A program made the position numbers and the translations under genes. This document shows, piece by piece, positions 6,703 to 18,134 of a DNA stretch of 64,000 nucleotides (its first letter is position 1; every line of letters begins with the position of its first letter). The notes under the pieces were generated by a model, which worked only from the letters and a program-made list of their open reading frames with translations, was not told where the DNA came from and ran no database searches. This stretch comes from Tenacibaculum jejuense (GTDB lineage Bacteria; Bacteroidota; Bacteroidia; Flavobacteriales; Flavobacteriaceae): contig NZ_LT899436.1 of assembly GCF_900198195.1 (NCBI RefSeq), forward strand, positions 3,501,001 to 3,565,000. The letters are read 5' to 3'.

Positions 6703-7470
6703 TTACCCTTTAATTCCTTTTACGAAATCTGCTATTCCTTCAACTCCATTTTTATCTAAGCTTTTAATGAATGCTGAACCTATTATGGCTCCATTACCAT
6801 ATTCACAAGCTTTTGAAAATGTTTTGTTATCTGAAATTCCAAAACCAATAATTAATTTACTTTTTAAATTCATGGTTTTAATACGCTCAAAATAATCAAT
6901 TTGTTGTTTAGAAATTTCTCCTTTTGCTCCTGTAATTGCTGAAGATGCTACCATATAAATGAAAGATTCAGTTAAATCATCGATTTTACGAATTCTTTCT
7001 TCTGAAGTTTGTGGTGTAATTAAAAACACATTTGTTAATCCGTACTTTTTAAATAACGCTCTATAATGTGATTCGTATTCTACCATTGGTAGATCTGGAA
7101 GAATTAAGGTATCAATACCGCAATCTACTACTTTCTGGCAAAAAGCTTCTTCTCCGTATTTTATAATTTGATTTACATATCCCATTAACACTAACGGAGT
7201 TGTATTTGTATCTTTAATGGCTTTTAATTGTTCAAAAACAACATCTAGATTCATTCCATTCTTTAGGGCAACAGTACTACTATGTTGAATTGTTGGTCCG
7301 TCTGCTAAAGGATCAGAAAAAGGTAAACCAACTTCGATAAAGTCTACACCGTTACTTCCTAATTTATCTATAATTTCGGCAGTTTGATTTAACTCTGGAA
7401 ATCCTGCAGTGAAAAATATAGATAATAAATTATGTTCTTGTTTTTGAAATATTTGTTGAATTGAGTTCAT
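6703..7470 (-). CDS. trpA: Tryptophan synthase alpha subunit
   Basis: Cleaves indole-3-glycerol phosphate to indole and glyceraldehyde 3-phosphate in the TrpAB complex; cytoplasmic TIM barrel of 255 residues, normal length. The signature FIEVGLPFSDPLADGPTIQ holds the two catalytic acids, Glu46 and Asp57 (equivalent to Glu49 and Asp60 of Salmonella). The phosphate loop GFGISDN and the end of the barrel (GAIIGSAFIK) are intact. It is the last gene of the trp operon; 106 bp separate it from the hypothetical gene upstream, and that gap contains a 16-bp AT palindrome (7523-7538). Confidence 0.97.
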   Translation of the reverse strand: MNSIQQIFQKQEHNLLSIFFTAGFPELNQTAEIIDKLGSNGVDFIEVGLPFSDPLADGPTIQHSSTVALKNGMNLDVVFEQLKAIKDTNTTPLVLMGYVNQIIKYGEEAFCQKVVDCGIDTLILPDLPMVEYESHYRALFKKYGLTNVFLITPQTSEERIRKIDDLTESFIYMVASSAITGAKGEISKQQIDYFERIKTMNLKSKLIIGFGISDNKTFSKACEYGNGAIIGSAFIKSLDKNGVEGIADFVKGIKG

Positions 7471-7576
7471 TATTTTTCTTCTTATGCATCATTGTAAGAT
7501 AAAATAATCAAGATCATCTGACTAAAAAGATCTTTTTAAGTTTTACCTAGAATGATAATATTTTGAATTTGATATG

Positions 7577-8050
7577 TTATTGAAAATCTAAATCTTTAAT
7601 TTCTCCATCTACATAATCAAAAGAAACATCTTTTGGATATGAATTTTCTTCAGAAAAAGGCTCTAAATAAAATGAAAAACCTTTTTCATTATGTAATGAA
7701 TTAATTCCCATGAAATAATATTCTTCAAGCCAATTTTGAACAACCTTTTTTTCTTTTCCTTCATTTTGATCTTTTAAAGCTTGGTTTAATCGATCAAATA
7801 AAAAATCTAAGTTATTCAATATCTGCTTAAGAATTTCTATATGTTCTTTATCAGGAGTTTTAGAATCGCCTTGTAAAATTATACTAGTGGTTTCATTTTC
7901 TTTATTTGGTATCAAATAATCATCAACATACCAATTGTACTTTTTTTTACCTTTTTTAATTCTTTCGCTAGTTATCTCTCCAAAATAAGAATCTGTAAAT
8001 GTCAGCTCATTTCCCAAGAAAAAACCTTCTATCTTTTCAAAAACTCCCAT
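7577..8050 (-). CDS. Hypothetical 157-residue acidic protein between trpB and trpA
   Basis: Not recognised. It is a soluble, charged protein without signal peptide or membrane segment. The order is an N-terminal segment (FEKIEGFFLGNELTF), a helical charged middle (HIEILKQILNNLDFLFDRLNQ) and an acidic C-terminus with FDYVDGEIKDLDF. The pattern suggests a small cytoplasmic immunity- or DUF-type fold, but that is only an impression. The start is 6 bp after the trpB stop codon, so it is translationally linked to trpB although no tryptophan role is known. Its presence separates trpB from trpA, which usually abut. Confidence 0.6.
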   Translation of the reverse strand: MGVFEKIEGFFLGNELTFTDSYFGEITSERIKKGKKKYNWYVDDYLIPNKENETTSIILQGDSKTPDKEHIEILKQILNNLDFLFDRLNQALKDQNEGKEKKVVQNWLEEYYFMGINSLHNEKGFSFYLEPFSEENSYPKDVSFDYVDGEIKDLDFQ

Positions 8051-8056
8051 TTTGTT

Positions 8057-9232
8057 TTACTTCAAATGTTTGATAAAAGTTTCTAAATCTTTATCTCCTC
8101 GACCTGATAGATTAATTACTATAGTTTGATCTGGTTTTAAATCCATTTTTGGTAAAACAGCTAAAGCATGAGCGGTTTCTAATGCTGGAATAATTCCTTC
8201 AATTCGAGTTAATTCATATGCTGCTTGTAATGCTTCATCGTCTGTTGCATTCATAAACTTAGCTCTCTTTGTATCATGTAAAAAGGCGTGTAATGGTCCA
8301 ACTCCTGGATAATCTAATCCAGCTGAAATAGAATAAGGCTCAACAATTTGTCCGTATTCATCTTGCATTAAAATAGTTTTACTTCCGTGAATCACACCTA
8401 CTTCTCCTAACTGCGAAGTTGCTGCACTTTCACCAGAATTTACTCCTAAACCAGCAGCTTCAACAGCAATTAATTCTACTTCTTCATCTTCTAAATAATG
8501 ATAAAAAGCGCCAGCTGCATTACTTCCTCCACCAACACAAGCGATAATAGTATCTGGATTTTCTTTACCTGTTTTCTCTTTTAACTGCCATTTCATTTCT
8601 TCTGAAATAATAGCTTGTAAACGCGCTACCATGTCTGGATGTGGATGCGGACCAACAACTGAACCAATTAAATAAAACGTTTCTGGGTTTTGAATCCAAT
8701 AACGAATGGCTTCATTGGTCGCATCTTTTAAAGTTTTACTTCCACTAGTTGCAGGAATAATTTTTGCTCCTAGCATTTTCATACGAGCAACATTTGGTGC
8801 TTGACGTTCAATATCAATTTCACCCATAAACACGGTACAATCTAATCCCATTAAAGCACAAACTGTTGCCGTTGCTACACCATGCTGCCCAGCTCCTGTT
8901 TCTGCAATAATATTAGTTTTACCTAACTTTTTTGCAATTAGAATCTGACCAATCGTATTGTTTACCTTATGAGCTCCAGTATGATTTAAATCTTCACGCT
9001 TTAAATAAATAGTTGCTCCATATTTTTCAGATAAACGCTTTGCTAAATATAATGGACTAGGTCTACCAACGTAGTCTTTTAACAATGCTTTATATTCTTC
9101 TTGAAATTCTTCTGATTCTATAATTTGAATATAATTATCTTCAATCTCTTTTACATTTGGGTGTAACAATTCTGGAATAAATGCGCCTCCAAATTGTCCA
9201 TAGTACCCATTTTCATCTGGATTATATTTCAT
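8057..9232 (-). CDS. trpB: Tryptophan synthase beta subunit
   Basis: Condenses indole with L-serine using PLP. 391 residues, standard TrpB1 length. The Schiff-base lysine is Lys89 in HTGAHKVNN; the active-site glutamate segment [11 protein letters not shown] and the phosphate-binding GGGSNAAG near residue 236 are intact, as is the C-terminal LSGRGDKD. The N-terminal [11 protein letters not shown] is the usual TrpB start. In the operon it follows a lipoprotein gene (28-bp gap) and precedes a hypothetical gene by 6 bp, so it is separated from trpA by that insertion. Confidence 0.98.
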
Positions 9233-9260
9233 GATACTTTTATTTTGTGTGTTGTGTCTG

Positions 9261-10019
9261 TTATTTCTTAATTATTATTTCTTCGTTTTTAATCCACTTT
9301 TCAAGTAATTGTTTATTTGTACTTAATTCGACTAAATAAAACTTAAAAAATGACGCAAAAACTGTTGATTTCTGTATGCGTTCTACTCCTACTTTTCCTT
9401 CTAGATAATTGGAATGAATGAGATATAATTCTCCTTTTTTCTTAAGAATATATCCTACATGACCTGCATCAAAACCTATAAAATGGATTCCTTCAGGTAA
9501 TACTTCTTTTATCTTTTGAATGATTTTGTCTGTCTCGTGATCAAAAATCTCAATTACTTTATTTTCTAAAGCTAGTGTTTTAGCTTCGTTAATGGGACTT
9601 TGCTGTGCTAATTGATATCTATTTATATTGAATCCAATATGTTTTAATGTTGTTGAAATAAAATATCCGCACGCGATTTCTCCTTTTTTCGGTGTTGATG
9701 TATACCCTTCAAAAGACCAAACTGTTCCTTCCCATTGAGGAATAATTCGATGTAATAATGCTGTTTCAAAAAACTGACTTAAAGAATCGAATTGCTTACG
9801 TTCTAATAATTCTCTTTTTTGTTCAAGAATTGTATTTCTTATTTGCTGATAGTTTCTATTCTTATCTTCAGTTAATACAAATTCTTGTAGGCTTTTGATT
9901 TGATGAGTTTTAGGCTCTTTTTTTTCTACAACTATCTTTTCTACTTTTTCTTTTTCTTGACCTTTACAAGAAATTAGAACTGTAGTAAACAGTATAAAAA
10001 ATTGACCTAACTTTCTCAT
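9261..10019 (-). CDS. Lipoprotein with possible Cys-His (NlpC/CHAP-like) fold
   Basis: A 252-residue lipoprotein: the signal ends in LISC with lipid-acceptor Cys18, followed by a Lys/Glu-rich linker. The folded part begins near residue 90. It contains [11 protein letters not shown] (Cys117 at the start of a helix) and [10 protein letters not shown] (His187 at the start of a strand), then a strand with HSN. That spacing is what papain-like NlpC/P60 or CHAP enzymes show, but overall similarity is unclear and peptidase activity is inference. Its ATG overlaps the trpF stop as TAATG, so it is translationally coupled to trpF although it has no obvious tryptophan role. Confidence 0.6.
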
Positions 10020-10720
10020 TATAAAACCTGGCTAATAAACTTTTTCAAATCTTTTACAGACTTTAAACCAGGTTCTTTTTCGAACTTACTGTTTACATCT
10101 AAAGCATAAACTGGTAAATCTGTTTTTATAATTTCTTTCACCTTAGCTACTTCATTTAATCCTATTCCGCCACTTAAAAAAAATGGTTTATTAGAATTGT
10201 AGCCTTCTAAAACTTTCCAATCGAAAGTAACTCCATTTCCTCCGCGCTCCTTTCCTTTGGTATCGAACAGGAAATAATCGACTACAGCTTCATAAGGTTC
10301 TAAAACAGAAAAATCAAATTCATCTTTAATTCCAAAAACTTTGATGATCTCTACTTTTGGTAATCGTTTTTCCTCTCTACTGCGCTCAAGGTGACCTTTT
10401 AATTCTTTTATATATTCGACAGACTCATCACCATGTAATTGTAAAGCTTCTAATTGATACTCTTCAGCAAGAGAAACTAAAATCTCTAAATAATCATTTA
10501 CAAATACGCCTGTTTTTTTTATTCCTTTAGGAATCTCAGGAATGATACCTTCAAAATTTCGTTTTGATTTTTCATAGAAAATAAAACCTAAATAATCAGG
10601 TTTTAATTCAGCAACTTGCCGAATATTATCTACGTACTTCATTCCACAAATTTTAAGAAGCTTCTTTGCTTCAGAAGAGGAATTATCAAAGCTTGAAACT
10701 TTGTTGTTTTTTTTATTCAT
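10019..10720 (-). CDS. trpF: Phosphoribosylanthranilate isomerase
   Basis: Amadori rearrangement of phosphoribosylanthranilate to CdRP. A TIM barrel whose catalytic Cys25 lies in KICGM and whose catalytic Asp is in ALDVNSKFE near residue 213. Two oddities: a ~20-residue Ser/Asn/Lys-rich extension precedes the first strand, and residues about 108-121 (GHLERSREEKRLP) are an extra in-frame segment between the QLHGDE helix and the IIKVFG strand. The DNA coding for that extra segment (10371-10396) looks like a Bacteroidota interspersed repeat. It starts 2 bp after the upstream lipoprotein stop and overlaps the next gene by one base. Confidence 0.95.
   Translation of the reverse strand: MNKKNNKVSSFDNSSSEAKKLLKICGMKYVDNIRQVAELKPDYLGFIFYEKSKRNFEGIIPEIPKGIKKTGVFVNDYLEILVSLAEEYQLEALQLHGDESVEYIKELKGHLERSREEKRLPKVEIIKVFGIKDEFDFSVLEPYEAVVDYFLFDTKGKERGGNGVTFDWKVLEGYNSNKPFFLSGGIGLNEVAKVKEIIKTDLPVYALDVNSKFEKEPGLKSVKDLKKFISQVL
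10371..10396 (-). repeat. REP-like interspersed element inside trpF
   Basis: On the minus strand the sequence begins GGTCACCTTGAGCGCAGT and continues AGAGAGG. To my knowledge very similar strings (CACCTTGAGCGCAGTCGA-type, usually as an inverted pair) are a common dispersed palindromic repeat in Bacteroidota genomes. Here only one arm is present, inserted in frame in trpF. Its G+C content is clearly higher than that of the surrounding coding sequence. No second copy was noticed in the window. Confidence 0.5.
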
Positions 10721-10722
10721 TA

Positions 10723-11694
10723 TTACTTTAACGTTAACTTATATGTTTTACCATAAGTACTTATCAATATATCTCTATTAAAACTGATGGCTTTATTCAT
10801 ATGTGCATGCGTTTTAAATCTATACACCTTTTCTCCTATTTTAATTTCTTTATAATACAAATACTTCGTACTATAGTCTGGAAAAAAGCGATTGCTTTTA
10901 GTCATCCAATCTACATCGTAGTCATATAAAATTCGGTCATCAAAATCGGTAAGTGTAAAATTTTTATTTGTGAAATCTTGATATGATGATTTAGATTGAT
11001 TTTTAGTAGCCTTCTTTTTATCCTTCAATATCAAATCGAAATTTCTAACAATATCGTTTATTGAATCTAAACTTAAAAAAAGCTCTTCTCCGTTATTATA
11101 TCTTATAATATAATTTCTCTCATTACATAAAATCTCTTTATAATCTTTCAATAATTTCTGTTCTACAAGTTCTTTTTGTTTCTCTACTATAAAATTATTG
11201 CGAGATGTATTTTTATTATACAATGTAGAATCTAGAGGTATTTGTTCGTAAGCTTTTTTATTTGCAGCCACAACATTCATATACTCTAGATATGCTGTTT
11301 CTATTTCTTTGACTTTTATTTTTTCAAATAAAGGTGGAGATATCTTATAACAGCTCTTTTTATTAGTGAAGTAAATTGTTCCTATCTTATCTACAAGTAT
11401 ATTATTTCTAGGACTACCATATCTAAAATCAAATTCAAACTCTTTAATGATTTGTTTAGACTTTTTATCTCTAATATGTATTTTGTGTTCTTTAATTTCA
11501 AAATTATTAGAAAAAGTATAAATAAACACGTCTGTATCAGTCAGAAAACTTTCCACAAAATATGAGGATTCTACTTTTATATCTTCAGAAAAATTCTCAG
11601 TAAAATATGGAACATCAGGATATTTATCTTCTTGCTTTCTACAAGAAAGTAACATGCAAAAGCATAGAAGAATTATGATTCCTTTTGTTTTCAT
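10723..11694 (-). CDS. Hypothetical lipoprotein inside the trp operon
   Basis: Not recognised. 323 residues; the signal peptide ends in LLSC (Cys18), followed by a mixed charged protein with many beta-prone segments (SSYFVESFLTDTDVFIYTFS, GTIYFTNKKSCYKIS), which hints at a propeller-like or beta-sandwich fold. A stretch around DEVEQ-free residues 150-215 is Lys/Asp-rich and helical. It sits 9 bp after the trpC stop and 2 bp before the trpF start, so it is locked into the operon. Nothing suggests a tryptophan function; it may be a passenger regulated together with biosynthesis. Confidence 0.6.
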   Translation of the reverse strand: MKTKGIIILLCFCMLLSCRKQEDKYPDVPYFTENFSEDIKVESSYFVESFLTDTDVFIYTFSNNFEIKEHKIHIRDKKSKQIIKEFEFDFRYGSPRNNILVDKIGTIYFTNKKSCYKISPPLFEKIKVKEIETAYLEYMNVVAANKKAYEQIPLDSTLYNKNTSRNNFIVEKQKELVEQKLLKDYKEILCNERNYIIRYNNGEELFLSLDSINDIVRNFDLILKDKKKATKNQSKSSYQDFTNKNFTLTDFDDRILYDYDVDWMTKSNRFFPDYSTKYLYYKEIKIGEKVYRFKTHAHMNKAISFNRDILISTYGKTYKLTLK

Positions 11695-11703
11695 TTTTAA
11701 TAG

Positions 11704-12492
11704 TTATCGAATTTGATTGATGAAATCTATACAAGCTTCACCCGGATTTTCTTCTTTCATAAAGTTCTCACCAATTAAGAAGCCTTGGAATCCGTATTCT
11801 TTTAATCCTGTTACAATTCTAGGATTACTAATTCCACTTTCGGAAACTTTTACTGCTGAACTTGGAATTTGATTCGCTAGATTAATAGAATGCTCAAGAT
11901 CTACTTTAAATGTTTTTAAATCACGGTTGTTAATTCCTATAATCTTGTGATCTAAATCTGAAATTTTATCTAAATCTTGTTGATTATGTACTTCATACAA
12001 AACCTCTAATCCTAAATCGTTGGCTAACTTACCATAGTTCTTTATTTCTTCAGCAGTTAAACAAGCCGCAATTAATAGAATAACATCTGCTCCAATTGCT
12101 TTAGCTTCTACAATTTGAAATCCGTCTACAACAAAATCTTTACGTAAAATCGGTTTGATCGAATTTACATTTCTAGCTTCCATTAAATCGGCCATTGTTC
12201 CTCCGAAGAAAGAAGTATCTGTAAGTATCGATTGCGCCGCTACGTTAGCATCTAAATATCCATTAGTAACTTCAGCAACGGTAACTTTATCATTGATAAT
12301 TCCTTTTGAAGGAGATTGACGCTTAAATTCTGCTATGATTCCAGTAGAATCTTGTGCTGTTAAAGATGCTTTTAATGAAATTGGAGTTCTTTTAAAACTC
12401 GGACTTTCAACTAGTTTTTTAACAGGAACTTCTGCTTTTATTTTTGCTATTTCCTGCTTTTTAAAGTTTACTATTTTCTCTAAAATTGTCAT
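11704..12492 (-). CDS. trpC: Indole-3-glycerol phosphate synthase
   Basis: Closes the indole ring of CdRP to give indole-3-glycerol phosphate. 262 residues, stand-alone TrpC (not fused to TrpF). The signature IIAEFKRQSPSKG carries Lys57 and the phosphate-binding SPSKG; LRKDFVVDGFQI holds the general-acid lysine; the strand-7/8 elements GINNRDLKTF and VSESGIS complete the active site. Start ATG at 12492 is preceded by an AT-rich stretch that includes one arm of an inverted repeat (12516-12528). Confidence 0.97.
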   Translation of the reverse strand: MTILEKIVNFKKQEIAKIKAEVPVKKLVESPSFKRTPISLKASLTAQDSTGIIAEFKRQSPSKGIINDKVTVAEVTNGYLDANVAAQSILTDTSFFGGTMADLMEARNVNSIKPILRKDFVVDGFQIVEAKAIGADVILLIAACLTAEEIKNYGKLANDLGLEVLYEVHNQQDLDKISDLDHKIIGINNRDLKTFKVDLEHSINLANQIPSSAVKVSESGISNPRIVTGLKEYGFQGFLIGENFMKEENPGEACIDFINQIR

Positions 12493-12515
12493 TTTAATTA
12501 TAAATTCTAAATTAA

Positions 12516-12528
12516 TAATTACGAATTA
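12516..12528. repeat. Inverted-repeat arm next to the four-helix-bundle gene (trpC side)
   Basis: TAATTACGAATTA here is the exact reverse complement of TAATTCGTAATTA at 12959-12971. The two arms enclose the four-helix-bundle gene, as the ends of a small inserted cassette would. Confidence 0.5.
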
Positions 12529-12577
12529 TGCTCTTTAAAATTAATTCAACATTAATAAGTAATCTATTATTTTGATT

Positions 12578-12931
12578 CTAAGAGCTACGAACTGTTTTTT
12601 GAATACTCCCAATTATTCTAAGTAACTCTTCCGAATCTTTTAAAAATGGAGTAGCCTCTGTTTCTTTTAAATAATCTGTATCCTTTAATAATCGTATCCA
12701 ATAATTTGCTTCTCTTGCTTCTTTGTACGCAATAGTGAGTTTAGCATAAAAATCTTTTCTACTTTGTCCACCAATAGCTTCTTCTATATTCGCTCCTATT
12801 GATGTTCCTGAACGTAAGAGTTGTTTGCTTAGAACGAACTCTTTTCTTTCTTTTGATAATTGCTGATATAGTTTTACAATCTTTACAGCAAACTCATAGC
12901 TTTTAATCTGAATTATATTGTCTCTTTTCAT
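12578..12931 (-). CDS. Four helix bundle protein (S23/IVS-like)
   Basis: A 117-residue all-helical protein of the family named 'four helix bundle protein' (TIGR02436 type), related to the proteins encoded in 23S rRNA intervening sequences and to the Avd accessory protein of diversity-generating retroelements. Diagnostic segments are SYEFAVKIVKLYQQL at the N-terminus, LRSGTSIGANIEEAIGGQSRKDFYAKLTIA in the middle and EANYWIRLLKDT after it. Cellular role unknown; a nucleic-acid-binding pentamer is known for relatives. It interrupts trpD and trpC and is flanked by 13-bp perfect inverted repeats, so it looks like a mobile passenger. Confidence 0.9.
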   Translation of the reverse strand: MKRDNIIQIKSYEFAVKIVKLYQQLSKERKEFVLSKQLLRSGTSIGANIEEAIGGQSRKDFYAKLTIAYKEAREANYWIRLLKDTDYLKETEATPFLKDSEELLRIIGSIQKTVRSS

Positions 12932-12957
12932 AGCATTTAATTTCCATTTCTTAATTC

Positions 12958-13947
12958 CTAATTCGTAATTAACTTATCCAAACACGCTTTTGCTTTTCCA
13001 CCAAATAACGAATCTTTAGCCTCTTCAAAAGCTACTGAAAATTCTTTTTCTGGATTTACAATAGTTAATGCAAAAGAAGCATTGGTTAAAACTACATTAT
13101 TTTGTGCTTCTGTTCCTTCACCGTTTAAAATCGATTTAAATATTTTAGCTGCAGCTTCTACAGAATCTCCTCCGTAAATATCAGATTGTTGAACTCTATT
13201 AATTCCAAAATCTTCAGGAGTGATTAATTGTTCTCCCGCTTTGGTAAATAATTTAAACCCTCCTGTTAAAGAAATTTCATCATAACCATCTAACGCATGA
13301 ACAATACCGTAGTTAGTATCTTCTTCTTGTAAGATATAGTTATACAATCTTGCCACTTCTAAATTGTATGTTCCCAATAATTGATTTTGCGCAAAACTAG
13401 GATTTACTAAAGGACCTAACATGTTAAAGAATGTCTTTAATTTTAAAGCTTTTCTTGTTGGTCCTACAGCTTTCATTGCTGGATGAAATTTAGGCGCATG
13501 AAGAAAACAAATATTTGCTTCTTCTAATTGTGATTTTAAAACTGATTCATCGTTCGTAAACTCATACCCGAAGCTTTCTAACATGTCTGAAGATCCAGAT
13601 TTAGAAGACACAGAATAATTTCCGTGCTTCGCAACTTTTTGTCCAGTTCCCGCAACAATAAAAGACGTTAATGTAGAAATGTTAAATGTATCTTTTCCAT
13701 CTCCACCTGTACCCACGATATCTATCGTATTAAATTCAGACAAATCAACTTTTACAGCTAACTCCAATAATGCTTCTCTAAAACCTGCAAGTTCTTCTAC
13801 TGTAATTGGACGCATCATGAAAACCGTTAGAAAAGAAGCCAAATGTGCATCGTTATATTCTTCTTTGGCAATATTGATTAAAATCTCTTTTGCTTCTGAT
13901 TTCGACAATCTTTTATGTTGATATAAATCGTTTAGAATCGATTTCAT
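12958..13947 (-). CDS. trpD: Anthranilate phosphoribosyltransferase
   Basis: Transfers phosphoribose from PRPP to anthranilate. 329 residues. The PRPP-binding GTGGDG is at residues 79-84 followed by DTFNIST; KHGNYSVSSKSGSSDMLE supplies the anthranilate and PRPP sites. It begins 5 bp after trpG. The last residues, LITN, and the stop codon are encoded by the inverted-repeat arm at 12959-12971, so the C-terminus appears to have been reshaped by the element that carries the four-helix-bundle gene; this should be harmless because the C-terminus is outside the active site. Confidence 0.97.
   Translation of the reverse strand: MKSILNDLYQHKRLSKSEAKEILINIAKEEYNDAHLASFLTVFMMRPITVEELAGFREALLELAVKVDLSEFNTIDIVGTGGDGKDTFNISTLTSFIVAGTGQKVAKHGNYSVSSKSGSSDMLESFGYEFTNDESVLKSQLEEANICFLHAPKFHPAMKAVGPTRKALKLKTFFNMLGPLVNPSFAQNQLLGTYNLEVARLYNYILQEEDTNYGIVHALDGYDEISLTGGFKLFTKAGEQLITPEDFGINRVQQSDIYGGDSVEAAAKIFKSILNGEGTEAQNNVVLTNASFALTIVNPEKEFSVAFEEAKDSLFGGKAKACLDKLITN
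12959..12971. repeat. Inverted-repeat arm next to the four-helix-bundle gene (trpD side)
   Basis: TAATTCGTAATTA, perfect partner of the arm at 12516-12528. It overlaps the trpD stop codon and its last codons. Confidence 0.5.
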
Positions 13948-13952
13948 TTGAA

Positions 13953-14534
13953 TTAATTTTTAGAAACTGAATTAATAAAATTACGCACCAACTGTTCTCC
14001 AACTTCTGTTAGAATGCTTTCTGGGTGAAATTGTACGGCACTAATTTGGTGCTCTGTATGACGAATTGCCATAATTCCACCTTCTTCATCTATTGCAGTA
14101 ACTTCAAGTTCTGCTGGTAAATCTTCGTTTGAAGCAATCCAAGAATGATAACGGGCAGCTGGGAAAGTTTCTGGAACTCCATTAAAGATTACAGCTTCTG
14201 GCTTTGTAACTTTCATATCTGTTGCAACACCATGAAATACTTCATTCATATTGATAATCTTTCCTCCAAAAACTTCTGTAATTGCTTGTAAACCTAAACA
14301 CACACCAAAAATTGGCTTTTTACCTGCATAAGTTTTAATTACATCTTTTAAAATTCCTGCTTCATCTGGAATTCCAGGACCAGGTGACAACATGATTAAA
14401 TCGTATTCTCCAACATCTTCTATTGAAATTTCGTCATTTCTGTAAACGTCTGGGTACTTATCGGTAATTTTTTCAACCATATGCACCAAGTTATATGTAA
14501 ACGAATCGTAATTATCTAGGATTAATATTTTCAT
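13953..14534 (-). CDS. trpG: Anthranilate synthase component II (glutamine amidotransferase)
   Basis: Supplies ammonia from glutamine to TrpE; class I glutamine amidotransferase, 193 residues. Catalytic Cys79 is in GVCLGLQAI, the oxyanion segment MLSPGPGIP is at residues 48-56, and the His-Glu pair is in FHPESILT near residue 170. The start is close to the standard MKILILDNYDSFTYNLV. A 74-bp gap separates it from trpE and holds a long imperfect palindrome. The same subunit often also serves PabB, but no pabB is near. Confidence 0.97.
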   Translation of the reverse strand: MKILILDNYDSFTYNLVHMVEKITDKYPDVYRNDEISIEDVGEYDLIMLSPGPGIPDEAGILKDVIKTYAGKKPIFGVCLGLQAITEVFGGKIINMNEVFHGVATDMKVTKPEAVIFNGVPETFPAARYHSWIASNEDLPAELEVTAIDEEGGIMAIRHTEHQISAVQFHPESILTEVGEQLVRNFINSVSKN

Positions 14535-14608: not shown

Positions 14609-16000
14609 TTATATTTTCTCTGCTAAGGTTAATGCTTTCTTTAATGCTGCTAGTTTGTTATTTACTTCTTGTAACTCTTTTTCTTCATCAGAATGAATTA
14701 CAATTCCTGCTCCTGCTTGATAATACAACACATTGTTTTTACTTACAAATGAACGAATACCAATCGCTAAGTTTACATCTCCATCTAAACCTAAAATCCC
14801 TACTGCTCCACCATAAAAACCACGTGACTGGTTTTCATATTTATCAATCAATTGCATTGCTTTATATTTTGGCGCTCCACTTAATGTTCCTGCAGGAAAA
14901 GTATCTCCAACAACTTTAATTGGATCTCCGTTTAAATCTCCTTGTACTGTAGAAACTAAATGAATTACGTGACTAAAATATTGTACTTCTTTAAACACCT
15001 CTACTGTTACATCGGCAGCATGTTTACTTAGGTCGTTACGAGCTAAATCAACTAACATTACATGCTCGGCAGTTTCTTTTTTATCTTCTGAAAGTTTTTT
15101 CCCAAGCTTTATATCTTCAGCCATATTACCCGTTCTTCTGAATGTTCCAGCAATCGGATTAATAATCGCTTTCCCTTCATTAACTTTAATTTGAGCTTCA
15201 GGTGAAGACCCCATTAACTTAAAACTTCCATAATCGAAATAGAATAAATACGGTGATGGATTTATAGATCGTAAAGCTCTATACACATTGAACTCATCTC
15301 CTTTGTATTGTTGTTGAAATTGACGAGATAATACCAATTGAAATACATCTCCTCTTTTACAATGTGATTTTGCTCTTTTTACATTTTCAATAAACTCTTC
15401 TCCTGTTAAATTCGAAGTTTCATCACCAACTATTTCGAATTTTTGCGTATTGAAGGTTTGCGCTTCAATAATTGTTTCTATTTCACTTAATCGTGATGTT
15501 TCTCCTTCTTCTAAGTTTTCAATTAATTTCATTTCATCATTGAAGTGATTAATGGCAATCACAAAACGATAAAAACTGTACTGCATCATTGGAATTGCAG
15601 AAGGTGCATCTGGATTATTTAATTTGATAGTTTCGAAATACTGAACACTATCGTAAGTTGTATAACCATATAAACCATTGAATGCTTTTAATTCTGGCTC
15701 ACAATCTAAATCTATGATCTGCGTAAAATCGTTAAATAATTCATTAAAATTTCTATCGATTTTATCTTTTTTCACTTCTTTATTCTTGTGAAAAATTGAA
15801 AATTCATCTTTATCTGCTTTAAAAGAAACCATGGGTTCTATACAGATAAATGAATAACTTTCTTCTTTACTATGATAATCTGAACTCTCTAGTAATAAAG
15901 TATTTGAATACTTATCTCTCAAACGCAGATATAATCCTACAGGAGTAACTGTATCTGAGATTTTTTGTTTAAAAAGTGTTTTAAATTTTGTAGGTTTCAT
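14609..16000 (-). CDS. trpE: Anthranilate synthase component I
   Basis: Makes anthranilate from chorismate with ammonia from TrpG; the first committed step of tryptophan synthesis. 463 residues, normal for Bacteroidota. Chorismate-binding motifs are intact: PIAGTFRRTG, MLVDLARNDLS, HLVSTVQG, GTLSGAPK and the C-terminal QAGAGIVIHSD. The N-terminal LLLESSDYHSKEESYSF corresponds to the LLES allosteric loop, so feedback inhibition by tryptophan is expected. First structural gene of the operon; its ATG lies 15 nt downstream of an intrinsic terminator that forms part of an attenuator. Confidence 0.97.
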   Translation of the reverse strand: MKPTKFKTLFKQKISDTVTPVGLYLRLRDKYSNTLLLESSDYHSKEESYSFICIEPMVSFKADKDEFSIFHKNKEVKKDKIDRNFNELFNDFTQIIDLDCEPELKAFNGLYGYTTYDSVQYFETIKLNNPDAPSAIPMMQYSFYRFVIAINHFNDEMKLIENLEEGETSRLSEIETIIEAQTFNTQKFEIVGDETSNLTGEEFIENVKRAKSHCKRGDVFQLVLSRQFQQQYKGDEFNVYRALRSINPSPYLFYFDYGSFKLMGSSPEAQIKVNEGKAIINPIAGTFRRTGNMAEDIKLGKKLSEDKKETAEHVMLVDLARNDLSKHAADVTVEVFKEVQYFSHVIHLVSTVQGDLNGDPIKVVGDTFPAGTLSGAPKYKAMQLIDKYENQSRGFYGGAVGILGLDGDVNLAIGIRSFVSKNNVLYYQAGAGIVIHSDEEKELQEVNNKLAALKKALTLAEKI

Positions 16001-16015
16001 TGTATTTGGTCAATA

Positions 16016-16047
16016 AAAAAAGGCTTATCATGAGATAAGCCTTTTTT
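16016..16047 (-). terminator. Attenuator terminator upstream of trpE
   Basis: A perfect 14-bp stem (AAAAAAGGCTTATC / GATAAGCCTTTTTT) with a 4-nt loop is followed on the minus strand by a T run, ending 15 bp before the trpE ATG. It lies downstream of a leader peptide rich in Trp codons. The loop and the 5' arm can pair with upstream leader RNA: GTGAGA (16080-16075) with TCTCAT (16035-16030), TCTT (16071-16068) with AAGG (16043-16040) and GTTAT (16067-16063) with ATAAC (16053-16049). Such a fold would be an antiterminator. Confidence 0.85.
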
Positions 16048-16079
16048 AGTTATTATTTATATATAACAAGATGGTCTCA

Positions 16080-16133
16080 CTAACGTAAGTTAAGAGTTTT
16101 CCACCACCAGTTATTTAATTGTTTCATTTTCAT
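16080..16133 (-). CDS. trpL: Trp leader peptide with three tandem Trp codons
   Basis: A 17-residue ORF, MKMKQLNNWWWKTLNLR, ending in TAG. Residues 9-11 are three consecutive TGG codons (16109-16101). A second in-frame ATG at 16127 could also start it. It lies between a consensus promoter and the intrinsic terminator in front of trpE. A pause hairpin, CTC (16096-16094) and TAAC (16092-16089) pairing with GTTA (16084-16081) and GAG (16078-16076), spans the end of the ORF. A ribosome stalled on the Trp codons would cover that hairpin's 5' arm. This is the classic layout of ribosome-mediated trp attenuation. Confidence 0.85.
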   Translation of the reverse strand: MKMKQLNNWWWKTLNLR

Positions 16134-16140
16134 TTGACAA

Positions 16141-16171
16141 CAAATTTATAAAGTCTTTTTTATCTAAACAA
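16141..16171 (-). promoter_or_regulatory. Bacteroidota-type promoter of the trp operon
   Basis: On the minus strand TAAATTTG (16148-16141) matches the -7 consensus TAnnTTTG exactly, and TTG (16171-16169) lies 20 nt upstream as the -33 element. The predicted start of transcription is only a few bases before the leader ATG at 16133, so the leader peptide would be translated from an almost leaderless RNA. Confidence 0.7.
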
Positions 16172-16179
16172 GTATTTAT

Positions 16180-17889
16180 TTATTTTTTTGTTTGATAGTA
16201 TTGAAGTGCGTTTATAACATATACCATAGGTGCATTCCAATTGATAGTTACTTCATTAGAAGCATAGGAACACCAAGTATCAGAATATGATTTTGCTGGC
16301 ATTTTACTTGTGTATTTACATTTGTCTTGTTGCCCAGGTTGCGGTCCGCCAACAACCATTCCTGGTACTGGTAAATCTACTTTATCTGCTTCTGAAATCC
16401 TGTGATGAGGATATTTTGCAGAATTTGTTCCTGCTCCTGTAATATAAGAAGTTCCTGTTCCATTTCTTCCTAACAAATAATCTAAACCAACAAAAACAGC
16501 ATCTAAATACGATTTATCATTTGTAAGTTCGTAAGCTTTCAAAACATACATTAACTGATTTCCTGCTACTCCATTACTTCCCCAAACATAATCTTTTCCA
16601 TTCATTGCTATTCGCATTGGAGAATTTGTAATTCTTTCTTTTAATTCGTCTGCTTTGCTTAAAAACTTACTTTTTGCTTTTTCAAATGGAATTCTATCCT
16701 TAAAATTCTCACCAAATTTCACAAGAGTGAATAATGTTAAAGCACTAGCATCTTTCCACCAAGGAACTTCATTAGAAACGGTTTCAACTGAAATATCTTT
16801 TGCAAATTCTTCCCCTCCAGTAACCACAAACAATTCTGTTGCGGCCCATTGAAACTCTCCTTTTAAATCAAAATCTTCATACTGACCAGTACGCACACCT
16901 TTTGGATTTGTAAAATAATCTTTAGGATGTTTTTTTGCCCATTTATAAGCCTTTAAAGCTGCTGTCAATAATTTACTACTGTAGGCTTCTTTTCCTGTTA
17001 CTTTTGAAAATATTCTAGAAGCAATCGCACAAACTGCCGCAAGATTAAGAGCTGCAGAAGTACTCTTCTTAACTACATACCTATCTAAATTGTATTCATG
17101 AGGCATAATTGCTCCAGAAAACTTTAATCCTGAAAGTTTATGATATACTCCTCCATCATTAGGATCTTGCATAGCTAACATCCAATCTAAATTCCAAATT
17201 ACCTCATCTAGAATATCTGGAATCTCATTTGTATTTTCAGGAATATGATAACTTTTACTTTTGTAATATTCTTGATAGTTTTCAAATGCACTTAATAAAG
17301 TATACGTACTTATTCCACTATTGGTAATATACATATTGTAATCTCCAGCATCGAACCAACCTTTTGTAGCAGAAATAATTGTTCCTTCAGGTCTTTCTTT
17401 ACTTGCCGCAGATTTATGAATGATAACTTTATCATCTTTTAAACCACTTGGTCTTTTCCATACTCCCGCATATTCTTCTGTTAATACTGTTGAAGCTCTA
17501 TTAAAATAATAATATTTGAAAACATCATCAGCTAGTTTTTTGTATGGATTTTTAAGAACTTTTATGTTTGATTGCTTTCCTGAAACAGACACTACATATT
17601 TACCTTCTTTGTTTATAGATGTGAAATCTATAATTCCGACATACTCATTTGCGTCTTTCCAAAAACTATCTACATTCAATTTTCCTGATTGAATTACATT
17701 ATTTGATTCATCTTTGATTTGATATATAGTTTTAACTTTTGAATTCGCATTTACAGTAATTAATTTTGTTTGTCCTATTGTATAACCTACTTGATTTACT
17801 CTAAGTTCAAGTTGATTTCCTTCTAAAGTTTGAGAAGCTAGTTTTACGGTAACAAAAAGTAATACCATCTTAAGGAGTACCTTCATCAT
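16180..17889 (-). CDS. Glycoside hydrolase family 9 protein
   Basis: A secreted glucanase-type enzyme of about 569 residues. The preferred start is the ATG pair at 17889/17886, which gives a normal signal peptide (MKVLLKMVLLFVTVKLAS); the ORF extends 24 codons further but with a non-signal-like N-terminus. An Ig-like CelD_N domain (LRVNQVGYTIGQTKLITV) is followed by the (alpha/alpha)6 barrel. GH9 motifs are present: WFDAGDYNMYITNSG with the catalytic base Asp, the His-containing YPHHRISEADK, and SNEVTINWNAP with the acid Glu. Substrate could be cellulose or another beta-glucan or chitooligosaccharide. No polysaccharide-utilisation (SusC/D) genes are adjacent. Divergent from asnB. Confidence 0.9.
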   Translation of the reverse strand: MMKVLLKMVLLFVTVKLASQTLEGNQLELRVNQVGYTIGQTKLITVNANSKVKTIYQIKDESNNVIQSGKLNVDSFWKDANEYVGIIDFTSINKEGKYVVSVSGKQSNIKVLKNPYKKLADDVFKYYYFNRASTVLTEEYAGVWKRPSGLKDDKVIIHKSAASKERPEGTIISATKGWFDAGDYNMYITNSGISTYTLLSAFENYQEYYKSKSYHIPENTNEIPDILDEVIWNLDWMLAMQDPNDGGVYHKLSGLKFSGAIMPHEYNLDRYVVKKSTSAALNLAAVCAIASRIFSKVTGKEAYSSKLLTAALKAYKWAKKHPKDYFTNPKGVRTGQYEDFDLKGEFQWAATELFVVTGGEEFAKDISVETVSNEVPWWKDASALTLFTLVKFGENFKDRIPFEKAKSKFLSKADELKERITNSPMRIAMNGKDYVWGSNGVAGNQLMYVLKAYELTNDKSYLDAVFVGLDYLLGRNGTGTSYITGAGTNSAKYPHHRISEADKVDLPVPGMVVGGPQPGQQDKCKYTSKMPAKSYSDTWCSYASNEVTINWNAPMVYVINALQYYQTKK

Positions 17890-18134
17890 TATTTCACTTT
17901 TATCTTTATGTTGTTGAATAATGTTACAAGTTAATACAAAAGAAGTATTGAAAAATAGCAAACTTTAATTCAAATTAAACATTTCATTTAAAAATATTAC
18001 ATTTAAAAACAAAAAATACACAAATAATTAAAATTTAAAACCAATACTTATTTTTTTGTTTTTAATAAAAAGTATATTCAAGTAATTTGAACCATAATTA
18101 GAAGTAAAATATATAAATAAAAAGATAAAAGATT

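Follow-up and report, generated by a model that had tools for sequence, protein, structure and literature searches.

The window analyzed here is a 64,000-nucleotide stretch of the Tenacibaculum jejuense genome. On its minus strand it carries a tryptophan biosynthesis operon that follows a gene for a GH9 glycosidase, with the genes arranged as follows (all coordinates are window positions).

14609..16000, minus strand: trpE, anthranilate synthase component I, presumably the regulated gene (PF04715 and PF00425; TIGR00564 is the best NCBIfam match, below its cut-off)
6703..14534, minus strand: remaining trp operon genes, all sharing this strand, interspersed with four further ORFs
13953-14534, minus strand: trpG
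12958-13947, minus strand: trpD
11704-12492, minus strand: trpC
10019-10720, minus strand: trpF
8057-9232, minus strand: trpB
6703-7470, minus strand: trpA
16180-17961, minus strand: GH9 glycosidase gene, adjoining the trp leader on its upstream side and ending at 16180

The operon order is trpE-G-D-(four-helix)-C-(unknown)-F-(unknown)-B-(unknown)-A. The interspersed genes include one for a four-helix-bundle protein of the 23S rRNA intervening-sequence type (PF05635, TIGR02436) at 12578-12931, between trpD and trpC. Three other ORFs, at 10723-11694, 9261-10019, and 7577-8050 among trpC, trpF, trpB, and trpA, gave no Pfam or NCBIfam match at E ≤ 0.001.

The region between the GH9 gene and trpE contains the following features.

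16169..16171, minus strand: TTG, the -33 element of a promoter of the Bacteroidota sigma-A type, with an N20 spacer to the -7 box
16141..16148, minus strand: TAAATTTG, the -7 element (consensus TAnnTTTG), 7 nt before the leader ATG
16134..16136, minus strand: predicted 5′ UTR of 3 nt, with a predicted +1 at 16136 derived from published box spacing
16080..16133, minus strand: leader ORF of 17 aa, MKMKQLNNWWWKTLNLR, plus TAG (A of the ATG at 16133, stop codon at 16082-16080)
16127, minus strand: second in-frame ATG of the leader, an alternative start
16101..16109, minus strand: three tandem TGG (Trp) codons, leader codons 9-11
16063..16114, minus strand: predicted 1:2 (pause-type) structure over the leader end, within the Rfam consensus stem region
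16096-16089/16084-16076, minus strand: predicted inner helix of the pause-type structure
16108-16103/16075-16070 and 16114-16110/16067-16063, minus strand: predicted outer helices of the pause-type structure
16073..16080, minus strand: segment 2, GUGAGACC, the 5′ strand of the predicted antiterminator, beginning at the last base of the stop codon
16030..16041, minus strand: segment 3, the predicted antiterminator 3′ strand (GG at 16041-16040, UCUCAU at 16035-16030), part of the terminator 5′ arm and loop
16015..16047, minus strand: predicted intrinsic terminator of 14 bp plus a U run (5′ arm 16047-16034, loop UCAU 16033-16030, 3′ arm 16029-16016)

A previous sequence-only reading of this DNA had proposed a complete trp attenuator, and its details, coordinates, and numbers are all borne out. 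The 17-residue leader with TGG at codons 9-11 and the TTG-N20-TAAATTTG promoter just upstream can be read directly, all on the minus strand. The 14-bp terminator had been placed and measured correctly, with the trpE ATG at 16000 lying 15 nt past its U run, and the proposed hairpin over the leader end is recovered as a predicted fold around the inner helix. The leader folds with a z-score of -5.7, and none of 200 dinucleotide shuffles folded equally well. In 464,000 bases of the same genome (the window plus twenty 20-kb stretches), only 9 of 5,710 short ATG ORFs (8-30 aa, counted per ATG) contain WW, and a terminator lies downstream of only two of these, namely both ATGs of the trp leader. A chance ORF was ruled out by this count together with the shuffle controls.

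The element belongs to a family that is already known. A match to RF01692 (Bacteroid-trp) lies directly 5′ of trpE at 16034..16153 on the minus strand and covers model positions 1-131 of 131 at 50.3 bits, just 1.3 bits over the gathering threshold of 49. In the Rfam alignment the AUG, the Trp codons, the main stem, and the terminator 5′ arm all fall in register. A gathering scan of the whole window returned only RF01692 and no T-box or other riboswitch family; ten further Rfam matches were sub-threshold (e.g., MicC at 28.6 bits versus 90). Rfam describes RF01692 as the "Bacteroidete tryptophan peptide leader RNA", and Bacteroid-trp, Bacteroidetes, and RF01692 appear in Table 1 of Weinberg 2010 (PMC2864571). 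The element has also been noted 5′ of the F. psychrophilum trp operon (PMC6414381). Furthermore, attenuation by a leader peptide, as we read it here, has been proposed before amino-acid operons in that related genus from transcriptome data (PMC9723704), where the pheA and hisG 5′ elements are named as lacking Rfam matches; the words trp and tryptophan do not occur in its main text. The earlier suggestion that such attenuation is little described in Bacteroidota finds no support in view of Weinberg 2010 and the two F. psychrophilum papers. The trp leader described here is real, in all likelihood functional, and a member of this described family. It shares with RF01692 its position, AUG, Trp codons, main stem, and the start of the terminator arm, whereas the Rfam model stops inside the terminator 5′ arm and holds neither the terminator nor the antiterminator pairs. 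What we add to the known family is a ribosome-position folding test, a spread wider than that of the Rfam model, and a predicted near-leaderless geometry that is absent from a his leader of the same genus.

RF01692 matches occur in 144 of 166 genomes of the genus, the window's own included (83 over the cut-off), and in 46 of 392 genomes of the phylum; the genus sample apparently spans the names Tenacibaculum and Polaribacter. We examined 152 loci, comprising the window, 60 Rfam loci, 80 named trpE loci (the best 80 of 232), and 11 further Rfam loci. The 71 Rfam loci were picked by model match alone, regardless of the gene that follows, and the 80 trpE loci were picked independently of the model. 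Because the genus and trpE samples overlap, counts are given on unique loci, of which there are 136. Leader starts were assigned by script as the longest ATG ORF to the stop, with GTG and TTG also allowed in some of the searches, including those of loci lacking an Rfam match.

A short ORF with WW(W) is present in 152 of 152 loci. The Trp run is three codons long in 129 of the unique loci and two in the other 7, and the peptides are mostly 14-18 aa. The residues that follow WWW (mostly NSL) are also kept in the Polaribacter and Tenacibaculum loci. Among the 22 genus genomes that lack an Rfam match, 20 were listed and searched; trpE was found in 15, each with a WWW leader, and the 5 genomes lacking it have a completeness of 53 to 92%. 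A script that allows one mismatch found a terminator-like hairpin in 135 of the 136 unique loci, missing L060 (an earlier version found 131). Conservation in relatives had been proposed as the check on the attenuator, and the TGG run is indeed kept throughout; the stems are conserved as well, but they show little of the covariation that had been hoped for.

Folding was then modelled with the ribosome at defined positions. The nascent RNA was ended 3 nt into the terminator 3′ arm, and the ribosome was taken to mask all RNA as far as 12 nt downstream of the A-site codon's first base. Antiterminator pairs are the expected pairs of upstream RNA with the terminator core, and the controls are 20 mononucleotide shuffles of the spacer. 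Averaged over 135 loci, the expected number of such pairs was 10.7 with the ribosome at the second Trp codon, 1.5 with the ribosome at the stop codon, and 6.2 without a ribosome. The Trp-minus-stop difference was 9.2, versus 0.7 for shuffled spacers; 98 of the 135 loci beat all 20 shuffles, and 133 beat at least 18. The window alone gave 7.6, 0.3, and 4.2 pairs in the same three states, with a difference of 7.3 versus 1.3 for its shuffles, one of 20 of which reached the real value. The competing antiterminator pairing, which the sequence-only reading had invoked without naming exact bases, takes concrete form in the window's minimum-energy fold with the ribosome at the second Trp codon, where 16080-16073 pairs with 16041-16040 and 16035-16030. 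With the ribosome stalled at the first or third Trp codon, a local hairpin has the lowest energy, and the expected number of antiterminator pairs is 6.2 and 7.1, respectively. Once the full terminator has been transcribed, it holds 11.3-11.6 pairs on average versus 0.8-1.1 for the antiterminator in every ribosome state. Antitermination must therefore be kinetic, and the antiterminator need only delay the terminator.

Segment 2 pairs with the terminator core at a mean duplex energy of -11.5 kcal/mol, and shuffled versions of it at -6.4 kcal/mol. Taken by itself, the longest perfect helix of segment 2 does not discriminate, being 6 bp in 86 of 135 loci and at least 6 bp in 1,119 of 2,700 shuffles. 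In lineage A (94 loci with the GGCTTATC arm), GUGAGN stands opposite UCUCAC, UCUCAU, or UCUCGC, with six pairs in 80 loci and five in 14. In lineage B/C, GUCGUGA typically stands opposite UCACGAC (the loop and the start of the 3′ arm); at a fixed register there are seven pairs in 27 of 38 loci, six in 5, and two to four in 6, while 3 loci could not be placed. These pairs were counted on windows whose anchor is the motif itself, so the counts do not amount to independent evidence. Lineage A segments 2 scored -10.1 with their own terminators versus -7.7 and -6.8 with those of the other groups, and the 33 loci with the GGCTTGTC arm scored -15.4 versus -14.3 and -9.0. The 8 remaining loci, at -12.2, preferred their own terminators only barely over foreign ones (-11.1 and -11.8). 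The terminator loop is UCAC in 85 of 135 loci and ends in UCAC in many more, and this conserved loop matches what an antiterminator modelled as gripping the loop predicts. The antiterminator pairs are nearly invariant within lineages, so no strong covariation results; a column covariation count (MAFFT, 40 of 46 representatives) was dropped because GUGAG aligned two columns apart between lineages.

The proposal of a trp attenuator fits the Rfam match, the WW(W) conservation, the terminator, and the ribosome-position folding. On these sequence and modelling grounds, we consider it highly probable that the element, in keeping with RF01692, is a ribosome-mediated transcription attenuator of trpE whose three Trp codons would be read by the first ribosome. 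The TTG-N20-TAAATTTG promoter would yield an mRNA that begins ~3 nt before the leader AUG, where a ribosome would load without a Shine-Dalgarno sequence. When Trp is scarce, this ribosome would stall at codons 9-11 and sequester segment 1. Segment 2 (GUGAGACC) could then, according to the folding model, pair with the end of the terminator 5′ arm and the loop, and RNA polymerase would continue into trpE. When Trp is plentiful, the ribosome would move on to the stop codon and mask segment 2, which would allow the 14-bp terminator to form.

The trpL attenuator of E. coli has two tandem Trp codons, a 1:2, 2:3, and 3:4 pairing logic, and a stop codon beside segment 2. The tandem codons, pairing logic, and stop codon position are shared with the present leader, which differs in having three Trp codons rather than two, no Shine-Dalgarno sequence, a predicted 5′ UTR of ~3 nt, and a predicted antiterminator that partly grips the terminator loop. 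Attenuation of this kind requires a ribosome close behind RNA polymerase. Conservation of a switch that, as modelled, folds according to the position of the ribosome may thus serve as indirect evidence for early transcription-translation coupling in Bacteroidota, organisms that naturally lack Shine-Dalgarno sequences (PMC6847099).

It is also conceivable, though rather unlikely in our judgment, that the terminated leader RNA, or the peptide it encodes, has a role in trans besides attenuating in cis, like rnTrpL and peTrpL of S. meliloti. In that Alphaproteobacterium, the trp leader mRNA is leaderless, with its 5′ end at the trpL ATG, and the terminated RNA with its 14-aa ORF acts in trans, as does the peptide (PMC7298713). 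Conservation of the residues after WWW in the Polaribacter and Tenacibaculum loci would suit a functional peptide, but the codons concerned fall in segment 1, so RNA pairing alone could explain it. Far less plausible is that the same RNA senses Trp in some other manner (through a T-box, a TRAP-like protein, or a Trp-binding riboswitch) and that the leader peptide is incidental. A strongly structured leader 5′ of a Trp operon is what such a sensor would offer, but the gathering scan of the window found RF01692 alone, and both the tandem Trp codons near codon 9 and a stop codon next to segment 2 have been kept in relatives, as a sensing ribosome requires. Least credible of all is that the hairpin merely terminates the GH9 gene, whose same-strand end lies 8 nt before the promoter TTG, and that the Trp-rich ORF arose by chance, since the promoter separates that gene from the hairpin, the 464 kb of the same genome hold no other ORF combining WW with a terminator, and a GH9 match (sought in flanks of 1,500 nt at most, shorter at a few loci) occurs in only 10 of 80 fetched relatives' loci versus a WW leader in 80 of 80, so that the terminator is not simply the end of the GH9 gene.

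The -12 to -5 placement of TAnnTTTG in F. psychrophilum (PMC9723704), together with its spacing of 4-5 nt from the F. johnsoniae start site (PMC6847099), predicts a 5′ UTR of 2-3 nt for the leader (~9 nt if the second leader ATG is used). A near-leaderless start with a 5′ UTR of ~3 nt is accordingly predicted for Tenacibaculum from box spacing. Of the 136 unique loci, 130 carry the exact box no more than 40 nt from the AUG, and 113 have a TTG at a distance of 17-23 nt upstream of their best -7 box; among the 134 loci with one mismatch or none in the box, 107 show a spacing of 19 or 20 nt. All 64 unique trpE-anchored loci carry the exact box; its distance from the AUG does not exceed 10 nt in 57 of them and 9 nt in 54, whereas shuffled controls placed a box within 10 nt in a mean of 0.5 and a maximum of 3 of these loci. 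Of 206 T. jejuense genes with an unobstructed upstream region, 12 carry the exact box 9 nt or less from their start, a share near the 5.5% of mRNAs that are leaderless in F. psychrophilum (PMC9723704).

The geometry has a limited range. Among 41 Rfam loci from the wider phylum, the box is within 40 nt in 35 but within 10 nt in only 9 (it is at 16-18 nt in 22), and the near-leaderless trait is therefore not universal. For loci of the same class without an Rfam match, an exact box lies within 10 nt in 8 of 15, a count that carries no shuffle control. Judged by box position, the putative near-leaderless geometry, on which the earlier suggestion of different timing rules would rest, is conserved in this genus and is not family-wide; many Flavobacterium-type loci lack it. 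The median gap from box to AUG in the genus is 7 nt for the trp leader (95 loci), consistent with the earlier claim of an almost leaderless leader mRNA whose start is deduced from spacing. S. meliloti provides an earlier case of a leaderless trp leader mRNA (PMC7298713), which the start predicted here from spacing would resemble, and the idea itself is therefore not new. In the literature searched, which omits most subscription journals, no paper was found on near-leaderless trp-leader geometry in Bacteroidota.

Trp-codon leaders extend past the reach of RF01692. A TrpE-like match at E ≤ 1e-60 is present in 102 of the 118 genomes of a phylum sample, and the upstream 600 nt were read at 40 of these. 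The same-class set consists of all 15 loci that lack an Rfam match (1 from the same family, 2 from the same order, and 12 further). The outside-class set is a non-random 25 of 76, hand-picked for family spread, whose TrpE-like matches are just 35-43% identical, so some may not be trpE. WWW is encoded in the last 380 nt at 12 of 15 same-class loci and at 13 of the 25 loci from other classes of the phylum; with WW or W.W accepted, all 15 same-class loci and 14 of the 25 others qualify. No such Trp run appeared on the antisense strand of those 40 regions, and 50 rounds of dinucleotide shuffles produced no WWW. The pattern W.?W appeared in shuffles at a mean of 0.5 (maximum 3) for the same-class set and 1.3 (maximum 3) for the outside-class set. 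A gathering scan of 14 of the 40 loci, and of the his and phe leaders described below, gave no Rfam match.

With a looser ORF pattern, 15 leaders were taken from each set, and a terminator was found at all 15 same-class leaders and at 12 of the 15 outside the class. The modelled ribosome switch was 7.0 versus 1.9 for shuffles in the same-class set, with at most 2 of 20 shuffles reaching the real value at 11 of 15 loci, and 6.8 versus 2.2 outside the class, with 7 of 12 loci doing as well; L179, L185, and L201 showed no switch in the folding model. For the genus loci without an Rfam match, the switch was 7.3 versus 0.8 in the 11 of 15 with a script-found terminator, and 10 of the 11 passed. At the other four (L220, L222, L224, and L225), the stricter terminator finder returned none, though the sequence has a hairpin and a T run.

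The current Rfam model evidently overlooks trp leaders of the phylum, and the WWW leaders at trpE loci outside it go beyond the published record as far as it was searched. It is about an even call whether the ancestral control of Bacteroidota trpE was a Trp-codon attenuator that reaches well past the Rfam family, with a near-leaderless mRNA in Tenacibaculum/Polaribacter and several other lineages on which the first ribosome would engage an AUG at the extreme 5′ end without Shine-Dalgarno contact. If true, this would be a leaderless-initiation form of the classic transcription-translation coupling switch.

An HHH his leader is present at 27 of 30 genus hisG loci. In 25 of the 27, the TTTG nearest to its start lies 16-19 nt upstream (median 18), and 2 have none; only 3 of the 27 contain an exact TAnnTTTG in the 40 nt before the start, which makes the his promoter box less certain. 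The trp leader, at 7 nt, and the his leader, at 18 nt, would thereby form a natural near-leaderless and leadered pair within one genus for testing timely loading of the first ribosome. At one hisG locus (L228; G000:C1, hisG match at 2451375-2451839, minus strand), where there is no Rfam match, the his leader MTFIQLHHHHHHICTQAN starts at 1168 of the reverse complement and has six tandem His codons and a terminator-like hairpin. Likewise, upstream of a prephenate dehydratase match (L229; G000:C1, at 4099969, plus strand), a leader without an Rfam match in the gathering scan consists of a Phe/Tyr-rich short ORF, MLQNVWQGFYFYFYYYSKRRGFVS, at 1348, followed by a hairpin and a T run.
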